A DNA stretch of 25,201 bases from a virus. The stretch is taken from positions 1 through 25,201 of IMG/VR virus record IMGVR_UViG_3300025769_000774. The stretch is one strand, 5' to 3'. The notes under the pieces are model-generated. The model was not told the origin of the DNA. It made no database searches and worked only from the letters and a program-made list of their open reading frames with translations. This document shows, in pieces, positions 4,230 through 13,810 of this stretch; positions within the stretch are counted from its first letter, which is position 1, and every line of letters starts with the position of its first letter. A program made the translations under genes and the position numbers.

Positions 4230-4258
4230 TTGACTTTCAACTAACCCGAATATATAAT
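4230..4258 (+). promoter_or_regulatory. Sigma70-type promoter P3, predicted leaderless
   Basis: TTGACT (4230-4235), a 17-bp spacer and a perfect TATAAT (4253-4258) are seen. The 19-mer at 4219-4237 is identical to that of P1. ATG 4267 begins eight bases after the -10 box, and the intervening TTATAAAA holds no ribosome-binding site. Confidence 0.85.
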
Positions 4259-4266
4259 TTATAAAA

Positions 4267-4650
4267 ATGGCAGAGTTAAAACGAGACCCGATTAAATACA
4301 TCAGAGACCGGGCAAAGTCGAAGTATGAAAAAGGCAAAGAGTGTAGAATTTGCGGTGCAAAAATAAAACTCGACTTTCATCATTTCTATACGCTTGCCCC
4401 ACTTTTTCATAAATGGTTAAAAGAGAAACAAGCACTTCGTCCAGAACATTATACAGATGAGTATCTAATTATATGGAGAGACGAGTTTATAGAAGATAAT
4501 TGGTCTGAACTTTACGATGAGACAGTTACTCTCTGCCACACCCACCATTTAAAGCTACATAGTATCTACGGAAGAAATCCTGGTTTACATACAGCAGAGA
4601 AGCAAAAACGCTGGGTAGAAATACAAAGAGAAAAATATGGCATGGTATAA
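4267..4650 (+). CDS. HNH endonuclease associated with the packaging module
   Basis: This gene encodes 127 aa. Zinc/HNH features are C26-x2-C29, LDFHHF (35-40, with H38/H39 for catalysis) and LCHTHHLKLHSIYG (89-102). In that last motif C90 and H93 take the place of the usual second CxxC pair, so the structural site looks like Cys3His. Phage HNH proteins beside terminase and portal are known to assist DNA cleavage during packaging in HK97-like and other cos/pac phages; that role is inferred here from position. A free homing endonuclease is the alternative. The start is set by promoter P3. The 3' end overlaps the portal gene by 14 bases. Confidence 0.85.
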   Translation: MAELKRDPIKYIRDRAKSKYEKGKECRICGAKIKLDFHHFYTLAPLFHKWLKEKQALRPEHYTDEYLIIWRDEFIEDNWSELYDETVTLCHTHHLKLHSIYGRNPGLHTAEKQKRWVEIQREKYGMV

Positions 4651-8211: not shown

Positions 8212-8244
8212 AGGATGGGAGCCTTCGGGCTCCCAAGCCTTTTT
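8212..8244 (+). terminator. Intrinsic terminator with UUCG tetraloop after the capsid gene
   Basis: GGGAGCC (8217-8223) pairs with GGCTCCC (8228-8234) around TTCG, giving C(UUCG)G. A lower stem AGG (8212-8214)/CCT (8238-8240) with a small internal loop brings the TTTT run (8241-8244) next to the helix. No promoter is visible between it and the next gene, so it probably terminates only partly and lowers expression of the connector genes relative to the capsid. Confidence 0.75.
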
Positions 8245-10826: not shown

Positions 10827-11960
10827 ATGGCATTACAATTTACAAGAAATGCAAACGTATATGTACAGCTGGTGGATGGCTCCGGCACTCATGTACAAGC
10901 TTGGAAACTTTCAGTCTTAGACGGGTTTTCATTTACACAATCAATTAACTCATCAGAAATTACCATTAATGAAGCAGGTTCAATCTCTCGTAGAGCAAGA
11001 TTGCTTTTTAACGATAGTTTAGCACCTGTAGAATGGTCAATGAGTACTTACGCCCGTCCTATTACGGACACTAATATTACTCATTGTCCTGAAGAACCTC
11101 TTTGGGCTATGATGTTAGGCGCGGACGGTTATGCTACAAATCAATATACTAGTTCAGTATTAGCAGGCGCGTCACCTGCTCCCGCCACTGAAAATATAAA
11201 TACTCCTGCTAATGGAACAAATACTTTTGACTTTTCAGCTTCAAATGTATCTTCATTTTCTGATCGTTGGAATATTTATTTCGGGTTTGAGGATACAGGA
11301 AATATTCAATTTTATAAACTAGACTCTGCTGTAGTAAATTCAGTAACTATGGATTTTGATATAGATGGTATTGCGACTCTTTCTTGGAGTGGCTTTGCAA
11401 AATCTTTATCTGATGAAGGTACTTCCGTTCCTACCGATTTGGCCTCCCCAATTACCATAGGATTAACGGATACTACTAACTTTATTCGTAATCGTATTTC
11501 TACAGTTTCTTTAACAAGAACAGATGTTACTCCTGACGATGTATATAATATTGTGTTGACGGGAGGCTCTTTTACTATTGAAAATAATGTCTCTTACTTA
11601 ACGCCGGAAGAGCTAGGGATAGTAAATGCACCTCTAGCAAATATTACTGGTGCTCGCTCAATTTCAGGCTCAATGACTTGTTATCTTGATAATGATCAAC
11701 TTAATAGTAAATCGGGAGAACTTTTTGCTGATTTGGTGGCTGATGTAGACACAGTACGAAATGTTTTTACTCTTTCATTAAATGTAGGAGGAGAAACTGC
11801 TTCTACCCCTAGGGTGGCATTTGAGCTTCCAACAGCACATTTAGAAGTGCCAACAATTAACGTAGAAGATCTATTGACTCTTGAAATTAACTTCCATGGT
11901 CAGGTGAGTGGAGGTAATGTTGATCTTACTGACGAAGCAACAATCGTCTATAAATCGTAG
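10827..11960 (+). CDS. Major tail tube protein
   Basis: This gene encodes 377 aa. GGAG (10814-10817) lies nine bases before the ATG. The protein is beta-rich with few Lys or Cys. It has an N-terminal tube-type segment (VYVQL.., then LSVLDGFSFTQSINSSEITINEAG at about 28-51, SRRARLLFNDSLAPVEWSMSTYARP), a central sandwich (about 100-200), and a C-terminal half that repeats similar motifs (SFTIENNVSYL..., RSISGSMTCYLDND at 277-290). This matches phage tail tube proteins whose rings stack along the tape measure. The gene is followed by a hairpin terminator and a new promoter. A diverged relative lies directly downstream. Confidence 0.85.
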   Translation: MALQFTRNANVYVQLVDGSGTHVQAWKLSVLDGFSFTQSINSSEITINEAGSISRRARLLFNDSLAPVEWSMSTYARPITDTNITHCPEEPLWAMMLGADGYATNQYTSSVLAGASPAPATENINTPANGTNTFDFSASNVSSFSDRWNIYFGFEDTGNIQFYKLDSAVVNSVTMDFDIDGIATLSWSGFAKSLSDEGTSVPTDLASPITIGLTDTTNFIRNRISTVSLTRTDVTPDDVYNIVLTGGSFTIENNVSYLTPEELGIVNAPLANITGARSISGSMTCYLDNDQLNSKSGELFADLVADVDTVRNVFTLSLNVGGETASTPRVAFELPTAHLEVPTINVEDLLTLEINFHGQVSGGNVDLTDEATIVYKS

Positions 11961-11979
11961 TAATAAGAAAAAATAAATC

Positions 11980-12008
11980 TTGACAACTTAGTGTTTGTTA
12001 GATATAAT
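11980..12008 (+). promoter_or_regulatory. Sigma70-type promoter P4
   Basis: TTGACA (11980-11985), a 17-bp spacer and TATAAT (12003-12008) match the consensus fully. The upstream context AAAAATAAATCTTGACAAC (11969-11987) is a relative of the P1-P3 19-mer with four differences. Unlike P1-P3, this promoter has a leader of about 60 bases before the next gene, and the leader begins with a stable hairpin. Confidence 0.85.
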
Positions 12009-12012
12009 TATG

Positions 12013-12043
12013 AAGATTGGGGGAAACTCTTCCCCCAATTTTT
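12013..12043 (+). terminator. Hairpin terminator overlapping the P4 transcript start
   Basis: ATTGGGGGAA (12016-12025) pairs perfectly with TTCCCCCAAT (12030-12039) around ACTC, and a T run (12039-12043) follows. For RNA coming from the tail tube gene it is a standard terminator. For RNA starting at P4 (expected start near 12014-12016) it would form the extreme 5' end, where it could protect the mRNA or cause early release. Confidence 0.8.
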
Positions 12044-12076
12044 ATATAATAAAAAGACTGTCAAGGGAGAAATGGA

Positions 12077-13021
12077 GTGAGTTTCGAATTCTTAAGAGAT
12101 GGTAGAGTCTGGCTCGAATATCCTGCAAATAATTTTTATCTTCTACACACCTTAAAAGATATAAATTTTTCCCAAACGTTTAAACAAGAGGATTTTAATA
12201 AAAAAACGTTACATAATCCGAATCAGTTTTTTAAAAGATCTTCTATAACAGAAGCAAATCCGGCTAATTTTTCTTTCAGCATATACATGTTGGACGAAAC
12301 AAGTCTTAATCAGCACAAGCTATTAGACTTACTACTGAATTATTCAGTAAACCCTACCTACACACTAGACACTTTTAACCTTTATTTTGTATACGAGAAT
12401 TATAGTCCTCAAGTTTACTATAAAATGGAAAATTGTGTTCTTACCTCGGGCTCTTTTAATATACCGAGAAATGGTCTTATGACAGTTCAACTGTCTGGAG
12501 AGGGAACAAAGCTAACTAGAAATTCGGCTCCGTGGACAATCACACCGCACTCTGGATATACTAGCTACCCTACTTACGCCGTGTCCAAAGTTTTTAATGT
12601 CTATATAGGAGGAACCACTCCTATATATAAATTAGACAATCTTATAGGGACGTCCTTTGAAGTCCAAAACAGTATTTCTTGGACAGCTAATTCCACTATA
12701 CAAAATTCTTTGCAAGTAACAAACGAGACTAATACAATTTTTCCTTCTTCATTTACTTTGGAGGATAGAAGTTTTGCTGGTAATATACGACAGTATATAG
12801 ATGAAACAAACCCACAGTCAAAAAATAACTTAATGACGTGGGCTGAAGGCATCACCGTGCAATTAGAAGCTGGGTTAGCCGAAAATAATCTTCAACTTGA
12901 AGTTTTGTTCGAAAATAACGCCTCTTTCACTAATAGAGGCTCTTTTGGAGAAGTATTCACTCAAAGCTATGATTTTAGATTAATTTCTAACCCTTTAATT
13001 AGTAATATTTTTAATTATTAG
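12077..13021 (+). CDS. Second tail tube-like protein (diverged paralog)
   Basis: This gene encodes 314 aa. GTG 12077 has AAGGGAG (12063-12069) about seven bases upstream; ATG 12072 is out of frame and meets a stop at once. Several segments line up in order with the major tail tube protein: VWLEYP...LKDINFSQTFKQEDFNKKTLHN (11-48) with VYVQL...LSVLDGFSFTQSINSSEITINEA; ANFSFSIYMLDE with VEWSMSTYARP; YKMENCVLTSG with YKLDSAVVNSV; SFEVQNSISWTAN with SFTIENNVSYLTP; and RSFAGNIRQYIDE (231-243) with RSISGSMTCYLDND. It therefore looks like a paralog that lost part of the central domain. It could form a special ring at the tail tip or base, or a minor tube subunit. It has its own promoter. Confidence 0.7.
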   Translation: MSFEFLRDGRVWLEYPANNFYLLHTLKDINFSQTFKQEDFNKKTLHNPNQFFKRSSITEANPANFSFSIYMLDETSLNQHKLLDLLLNYSVNPTYTLDTFNLYFVYENYSPQVYYKMENCVLTSGSFNIPRNGLMTVQLSGEGTKLTRNSAPWTITPHSGYTSYPTYAVSKVFNVYIGGTTPIYKLDNLIGTSFEVQNSISWTANSTIQNSLQVTNETNTIFPSSFTLEDRSFAGNIRQYIDETNPQSKNNLMTWAEGITVQLEAGLAENNLQLEVLFENNASFTNRGSFGEVFTQSYDFRLISNPLISNIFNY

Positions 13022-13029
13022 GAGATTTA

Positions 13030-13461
13030 ATGAAGTTAAAAGATTTAATGGTAGACACCAAATCGGCTTGGGTCGATTTTCCTGGTTGTCCTGGATTCGA
13101 AGTAGAGGTATGTAATCTTTCTCGAAAAGAATTAGTTAATTTAAGGAAAAGGTGTGTTGCACAAAAATTCGATAGAAAGACTAGACAAATGGTAGAAGAT
13201 TTAGACGAAGAAAAATTCGTAAGAGAGTTTTCCGCCGCAACAATAAAAAGCTGGAAAGGCTTGAAGCTAAAATATTTGGAAGATCTTATTTTAGTAGACT
13301 TAAAAGACCAAGATCACGAAACTGAACTTGATTACGATGCTGAACAAGCGGAAGTACTAATCCAAAACTCTACTGAGTTTGATAACTGGATAAACGAGGT
13401 AGTCTTTGACCTTGCCAACTTTCGCGGAGGACCAAAAGGAGAGTCTCTGGAAAAGGTTTGA
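13030..13461 (+). CDS. Tail assembly chaperone (lambda gpG-like)
   Basis: This gene encodes 143 aa. GGAG (13021-13024) precedes ATG 13030. The protein is acidic and helical, with a short N-terminal beta part (KSAWVDFPGCPGFEVEVCNLSRKEL), RKLTRQMVEDLDEEKFVREFSAATIKSWKG-like charged segments, and a final helix (FDNWINEVVFDLANF). Position between tube and tape measure, size and composition match the first of the two chaperones that coat the tape measure during assembly. The 3' end overlaps the next frame, as in the G-GT pair of lambda. Confidence 0.8.
   Translation: MKLKDLMVDTKSAWVDFPGCPGFEVEVCNLSRKELVNLRKRCVAQKFDRKTRQMVEDLDEEKFVREFSAATIKSWKGLKLKYLEDLILVDLKDQDHETELDYDAEQAEVLIQNSTEFDNWINEVVFDLANFRGGPKGESLEKV
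13403..13461 (+). other. Probable programmed frameshift window (+1 or -2)
   Basis: The first chaperone frame runs to TGA 13459-13461. The second frame opens after TAG 13400-13402, so any shift must occur here. Moving between these frames needs +1 or -2, not lambda's -1. Candidate sites are GTT-TGA (13456-13461), a +1 slip at a UGA stop with purine-rich GGAAAAGG just upstream, and the AAAAG run at 13451-13455 (a -2 slip of the Lys tRNA from AAG to AAA). The fused product would be about 259-260 aa. Confidence 0.55.
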
Positions 13462-13810
13462 TCTGTGGCAAAAAAATAATGCTGTAGGAATGACCAAAGA
13501 AAGATATCTAGAGATGGAGGAACAGTTAGGTAGAGAGCCTAGTCCTGACAAGTGTCCTCCAGGAATAGAAGATTTCCCTGAAGAAGTTATAGAAGCTGTA
13601 CACATATTTAATGCTCTTGGAGATAGAGTTTATCCAGAAATAGGGTATATTGGAAAAGACTATACAAATCTCCCAATACTAATTAAATTATACGAAGTTG
13701 ATAACCAAGAATTGTTACTAGACGTGTTATCAAGACTTGACGCAGAAGCGATTAAAATTTCTCAAGAAAGATTAAAACGCGAATACGACAAGATAAAGAG
13801 AAAAAAGTAG
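13406..13810 (+). CDS. Tail assembly chaperone, frameshifted half (gpT-like extension)
   Basis: The open frame 13403-13810 encodes about 135 aa. No convincing independent start exists: TTG 13406 lacks a ribosome site, and ATG 13490 (MTKERYLEMEEQLG) has only GTAGGA touching it. Protein-like sequence clearly begins before that ATG (LWKRFDLWQKNNAVG), which favours production by frameshift from the upstream gene. The body shows MTKERYLEMEEQLGREP, CPPGIEDFPEEVIEAVHIFNALGDRVYPE, KDYTNLPILIKLYEV and a basic helical C-terminus (LKREYDKIKRKK). This pattern occurs in the second tail chaperone of many phages. Its TAG overlaps the GTG of the tape measure by one base. Confidence 0.75.
   Translation: MTLPTFAEDQKESLWKRFDLWQKNNAVGMTKERYLEMEEQLGREPSPDKCPPGIEDFPEEVIEAVHIFNALGDRVYPEIGYIGKDYTNLPILIKLYEVDNQELLLDVLSRLDAEAIKISQERLKREYDKIKRKK

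Follow-up and report, generated by a model that had tools for sequence, protein, structure and literature searches.

The tail tube gene of an uncultured T5-related phage is followed by a full-consensus sigma70-type promoter that sits directly upstream of a GC-rich hairpin with a T-run, and the two parts recur after related tail tube genes as a conserved element whose order is swapped in many relatives. Sequence comparison establishes that the element is conserved, that its two layouts are nearly exclusive of each other, that they have switched repeatedly, and that the T-run is conserved. The reading that we favour, with a probability of roughly 0.6, is that the hairpin is a mostly leaky intrinsic terminator that also forms the 3' end of the tube mRNA, and that the nested promoter restarts transcription.

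The window, a virus record of 25,201 bases, contains head and tail genes only, in a T5-like order: terminase, portal, protease with major head protein, head-tail adaptor and an unnamed protein, followed by tail terminator, tail tube, baseplate tail tube and tail assembly chaperone. From its length and place, we take the 1605-residue frame after the chaperone to be the tape measure protein. The gene for the tail tube (major tail) protein, which is T5 pb6-like (10827-11960, + strand; phrog_3575 major tail protein, E = 1.2e-52), encodes a protein about 32% identical to Demerecviridae tail tube proteins by tblastn; 903 records were matched, every one below 60% identity, and the best among the matches listed reached about 32%. 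The next gene belongs to the baseplate tail tube protein family (12077-13021, + strand; phrog_3889, E = 4.2e-14), starts with GTG, and has a Shine-Dalgarno-like AAGGGAG that can be read in the sequence (12063-12069, + strand). The 116 bp between the end of the tube gene (11960) and the GTG at 12077 hold an A-tract, the promoter, the hairpin and the T-run. Among cultured phages, no match was found by blastn with positions 10827-13800 or by tblastn with the downstream baseplate protein, and searches of viral contigs returned no relative of the latter. The tube profile found no relative in bacterial and archaeal genomes, so the host cannot be read from a prophage.

The promoter, P4 (11980-12008, + strand), consists of TTGACA (11980-11985), a 17-nt spacer and TATAAT (12003-12008), that is, 12 of 12 sigma70-type hexamer positions at 17 bp, within the 16-18 bp spacing of this promoter class. 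It is the only 12-of-12 match of the promoter scan in the window, where the exact pattern occurs once on both strands against 0.005 times per shuffle (200 dinucleotide shuffles of the window). An A-tract or UP-like block, AAAAAATAAATC (11968-11979, + strand), abuts the -35. The A-tract and the TC before TTGAC are strongly conserved whichever side of the promoter the hairpin lies on, and promoters of both layouts have in common the block AAAAATA-TTCTTGAC before and at the -35 (11968-11985 in the window). The C before TTGAC is reminiscent of alphaproteobacterial promoters, a possible hint at the host.

Transcription usually starts 7-8 nt past the -10, which places the predicted start of P4 at 12015-12016 (+ strand). 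This prediction has indirect support from three sister promoters of the window (at 93, 2057 and 4230), in which an A-rich block precedes TTGACT and the A of an ATG is the 8th or 9th base past the -10 (93-131, 2057-2095 and 4230-4269). In related loci, an ATG follows the -10 within 12 nt at 39 of 183 distinct promoters of this kind, the spacing being exactly 7 nt at 22 of them. This is what leaderless mRNAs beginning with their ATG would show, and it agrees with a P4 start near 12016. The three sister sites, where no Shine-Dalgarno sequence is visible, probably give leaderless mRNAs themselves, and the same A-rich promoters with a near ATG are also present in L019, L021, L025, L026, L043, L059, L068 and other loci.

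At 12016 begins a perfect 10-bp stem with the loop ACTC (12016-12039, + strand; arms 12016-12025 and 12030-12039), and a T-run at 12039-12043 (+ strand) marks the predicted point of RNA release. The 52-nt fold has an energy of -23.1 kcal/mol and a z of -6.6, with 0 of 200 shuffles equally good. Perfect 10-bp stems with loops of 3-8 number two in the window against 0.29 per shuffle (200 dinucleotide shuffles). Coordinates and shuffles thus confirm what an earlier note had described at this site, a full-consensus promoter with a perfect 10-bp stem and a T-run at its expected start, the start being a predicted one. The second of the two perfect stems lies at about 12602-12627, in the coding sequence of the baseplate gene, and is not accompanied by a T-run. 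Elsewhere in the window, a hairpin with a UUCG loop is found directly 3' of the major head protein gene (8216-8235), with no promoter after it; its T-run is displaced by four bases and its d-score is -24.6.

Regions downstream of related tail tube genes were gathered from a tube protein search (17 loci), a nine-protein profile (best 80 of 533) and a second profile (best 80 of 528). Loci lacking the tube C-terminus were dropped and 216 locus-strands possessing it were kept; seven of these were then dropped for having less than 110 nt downstream or no stop in reach (L275, L297, L358, L361, L362, L343 and L219), which left 209 loci, many of them overlapping, that extend at least 110 nt beyond the tube gene and correspond to 139 distinct regions. 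A broad scan for a consensus promoter with GGGG..CCCC gave, among the matches listed, many that resemble unrelated promoters with a weak hairpin or none, and it was not used alone for the counts; 9 promoter-first regions and 6 of the 49 non-redundant elements analysed below come only from that scan. In this sample, which is biased towards the query sequences, the 139 regions comprise 78 with the promoter followed by the hairpin, as in the window (promoter-first), 45 with a terminator followed by the promoter (terminator-first), 11 with a hairpin alone, 4 with neither and 1 unclear. Labels were set by eye for three promoters only, with L370 placed as promoter-first, L337 as terminator-first and L064 left unclear, and L221, a cultured phage, was counted as lacking a hairpin, since the only one it has falls within the next gene. 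Of the four regions with neither part, two belong to cultured T5-like phages and the other two are L377 and L381. In L064, L377 and L381 the tail tube gene is followed by another tube-like gene, the two being tandem paralogues.

The distance of the promoter from the tube stop codon separates the regions sharply, being at most 33 nt in 79 of them and at least 48 nt in 45. When the promoter is near, a strong hairpin follows within 60 nt of the -10 in 77/79 regions (2.6 expected from shuffles) and precedes the promoter in 0/79; with the regions from the hairpin-requiring scan removed, 69 of 70 near-stop promoters have the hairpin. When the promoter is far, the situation is reversed, with a strong hairpin before it in 45/45 regions and after it in 0/45. 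No region among the 139 has a strong hairpin on both sides. Together with the hairpin-only relatives (11/139), the near and far promoters indicate, at the level of sequence, that the invariant part is a single hairpin placed at the tube gene's end and that the side taken by the promoter is what varies. In ten loci (L274, L280, L287, L295, L298, L299, L301, L365, L380 and L097) the hairpin lies 10-14 nt past the tube stop without a promoter, and the next gene begins shortly after.

Strict exclusivity of the two layouts was ruled out. Under looser criteria (at least 3 G-C pairs), a weaker stem is present after the promoter in 5 of the 45 terminator-first regions (L227, L228, L234, L337 and L303), against 1.5 expected from mononucleotide shuffles. 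Three of these, L227, L228 and L234, are alike, their promoters being followed by a stem of 8 bp and a tail that contains T; since they are similar to one another and fall in or near the branch of the window, they may be intermediates between the layouts.

The signature of an intrinsic terminator, a GC-rich hairpin followed at once by a T-run and conserved in relatives, is present here, RNA release itself being a prediction. Across 49 non-redundant promoter-first elements, T averages 5.35 in the 8 positions that follow the GC core, against 1.78 and 1.80 in control windows on either side. At least five of the 8 are T in 40/49 elements and at most three in 4/49, and these four still keep the hairpin; likewise, the d-score is above 0 in 47/49, and the hairpin is retained in the two negative cases. 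The arms vary in sequence, with 35 different left arms in the 49 elements, while pairing is kept, in part by construction because the elements were selected for a hairpin. Against this background it is barely credible that the inverted repeat arose by chance or acts only as a DNA operator, with nothing to do at the RNA level: inverted repeats at promoters are often operators, but chance is excluded by the 77 regions observed against the 2.6 expected, and changing arms with maintained pairing and a conserved T-run are not what an operator would call for.

Compared with the hairpins of 33 terminator-first elements, those of the 49 promoter-first elements have weaker T-runs (p = 8e-10), as do those of six hairpin-only elements (p = 0.003), related elements being counted as independent in both tests. 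Their core stems are stronger (-14.1 vs -9.4 kcal/mol), the stems having been cut back to the outermost G-C pair, a step that reduces the energy counted for terminator-first hairpins flanked by A-T, and loops of the cUUCGg/cUCCGg type occur in 0/49 of them vs 28/33 of the terminator-first hairpins. In promoter-first and hairpin-only regions, polymerase has to cross the hairpin to get to the downstream genes, and weaker T-runs therefore suit a leaky punctuation. Leakiness is not evident in the window's own copy, whose d-score of 35.6 is at the strong end and compares with a terminator-first mean of 35.9.

The GC core starts 7-22 nt past the -10 in 49/49 promoter-first elements; 25 of them, with the core at 7-13 nt, form the subgroup of the window. 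This position near the RNA 5' end, which in the window coincides with the predicted start itself as expected of an mRNA stabiliser, raises the possibility, in our view a rather doubtful one, that the hairpin is chiefly a 5'-terminal stem-loop protecting the tail-gene mRNA from decay much as the T7 gene 10 leader does, and that it resembles a terminator only secondarily. The combination of stronger stems with weaker T-runs would agree with such a role, as would the four elements that keep a hairpin with few T, and a T7 gene 10 stem-loop increased the output of a reporter in C. necator by 1.5-3-fold (PMC6146998). However, 40/45 terminator-first regions have no leader hairpin even under the loose criteria, with the same downstream gene families, which argues that it is not generally needed downstream, although it may still help where present. 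Moreover, hairpin-only relatives have no promoter and thus no new 5' end from one, and in the long-gap subgroup the core would lie about 7-15 nt into the RNA. The conservation of T-runs across the 49 elements also speaks against this role.

A role of the hairpin in the incoming tube RNA is moderately favoured by the bases that flank the core. In RNA that reads through from upstream, and only there, the stem of the window could extend to 17 bp with two G-U pairs (12009-12046, + strand; arms 12009-12025 and 12030-12046), as it would include bases before the predicted start of P4. In the subgroup of the window, pairing between the first six bases past the -10 and the sequence that follows the core exceeds that of swapped partners (25/20000), the same applies to the whole flanks (2/20000), and 6/25 elements outdo shuffled versions of their 3' flank (p<0.05); no such signal was seen in the long-gap subgroup (0/24) or in the flanks of terminator-first hairpins (1/33). 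Since a control comparison with bases farther downstream is also low (339/20000), relatedness inflates the test and the support is moderate. Because the outer bases are not transcribed from P4 itself, the pairing would make sense in RNA that has been transcribed through the tube gene. Several stems were misaligned when 17 hairpins were aligned with MAFFT, and the pair counts do not draw on that alignment.

The earlier note had proposed that the same DNA would end incoming RNA and provide outgoing RNA with a 5' stem-loop. This proposal holds insofar as promoter and hairpin constitute one conserved, T-enriched unit with d-scores nearly always positive, whereas both the start and the termination on which it depends are predicted. 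Its further suggestion of insulation is sustained in part: the terminator features and the constancy of the hairpin at the end of the tube gene speak for it, but RNA from P4 must itself cross the hairpin, and the T-runs of the family are of the weaker kind. Stabilisation of the outgoing RNA, also suggested there, is possible.

The layouts were mapped onto a tree of 124 tube proteins, obtained by a quick method without bootstrap, from which short, near-identical and three unclear sequences were left out, and for which the labels predate the relabelling of L370 and L337. On this tree the promoter-first label requires 18 changes, at least 9 of them forced by well-supported (starred) branches, and the terminator-first label 15 changes, at least 8 of them forced. 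The labels are clustered (0/500 shuffles gave as low a number), without a single origin. The layouts have therefore been swapped repeatedly among related phages, as judged from these 15-18 changes. Both main downstream gene families occur with either layout (31 promoter-first and 24 terminator-first regions for one, 41 and 18 for the other). The sister tube proteins of L331 and L372, about 93% similar, are associated with opposite layouts and different next genes, which in sequence terms is a recent swap of the gene boundary. The roughly 100 bp past the tube gene thus represent a natural experiment, in which one boundary has received two solutions with many switches among related phages.

In the reading that we favour, the element would serve as transcription punctuation between a gene whose product is needed in many copies, the tail tube, and genes needed in fewer copies, those of the baseplate, chaperone and tape measure proteins. 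The GC-rich hairpin with its T-run would partly terminate the incoming tube RNA, being leaky in most of the family, and the very strong sigma70 promoter directly upstream of it would restart transcription. Partial termination so near a promoter has a precedent in vitro, where E. coli polymerase showed 31-41% termination at lambda tR2 in a 38-bp unit (PMC6978380). Transcripts from P4 would begin with the same hairpin, a part being released after about 28 nt and the rest running into the tail genes; terminator-first relatives would achieve the same end with the terminator ahead of the promoter. We infer actual termination, leakiness, gene output and early release from P4 from the sequences compared.

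Early release may be taken further, as the earlier note did in its alternative: P4 and the hairpin would then be a small-RNA gene or a brake, yielding abundant hairpin RNAs of about 28 nt with little read-through. A consensus promoter, a hairpin and a T-run do make up a complete short transcription unit, the d-score of the window is high, and such a brake is physically plausible in view of the termination seen in vitro (PMC6978380). We nevertheless hold this to be decidedly unlikely, given that the hairpin sequence is not conserved, as the diversity of left arms indicates, and that no Rfam family was found at gathering score; furthermore, no promoter lies between the hairpin and the next gene, so that the tail genes would depend on read-through. 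In the same in vitro study, most of the terminated polymerase remained bound to the DNA and was able to start again from an upstream or a downstream promoter (PMC6978380). The nested layout might have been selected for such recycling, with polymerases that release the tube mRNA remaining on the DNA, sliding back tens of bp to P4 and restarting there, a reading that we regard as unlikely. If it were true, the supply of polymerase to the tail genes would come from recycling and scale with tube transcription; the two layouts would represent one device in two geometries, with restart upstream or downstream of the release point, and the element would provide a natural case of what has been seen in vitro.

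Another way past the hairpin would be an antiterminator that loads at P4 and carries the polymerase through, gating the promoter in the way of lambda Q or AlpA. AlpA acts on promoters that have an intrinsic terminator directly downstream (PMC7969949), and the spacers of the long-gap subgroup contain a partly conserved TGGT block. We think this very unlikely, the spacers giving it no clear support: those in the subgroup of the window have no strongly conserved block, and terminator-first spacers also have a partly conserved one (CCTCC), although an antiterminator would be unneeded there. The element lets one ask if a terminator close to a promoter is leaky, escaped or recycled, and by what means phages adjust the amounts of tube and tail-tip proteins relative to each other.

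We found no description in the open-licence literature of a nested promoter and hairpin with side-switching order after a tail tube gene. Its components have precedents, since leaky terminators after abundant structural or coat genes and 5' hairpins are known in phages, as exemplified by T7, with T-phi after gene 10, and by filamentous phages, with the central terminator between genes VIII and III. As in these two cases, a terminator after an abundant structural gene would lower the expression of the tail or tip genes that follow; unlike them, the element has a full-consensus host-type promoter directly before the hairpin, and relatives swap the order. With the T7 gene 10 stem-loop (PMC6146998) it would share a stem-loop near the 5' end of a phage structural-gene mRNA, but here the promoter is of the sigma70 host type, a T-run follows, and most terminator-first relatives lack the leader hairpin. 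The promoters controlled by AlpA and lambda Q similarly combine a strong promoter with an intrinsic terminator close behind (PMC7969949), whereas the subgroup of the window has no strongly conserved loading element and its hairpin would also end the upstream gene. A terminator tens of bp from a strong promoter is likewise the geometry in which recycled polymerase restarted in vitro (PMC6978380; see also PMC6978322). Finally, cultured T5-like phages (Demerecviridae) have a tail tube gene homologous to this one and arrange their head and tail genes in much the same way, but the 7/7 examined, of about 900 matching records, leave no room for the element, with 0-11 bp after the tube gene or an overlap.
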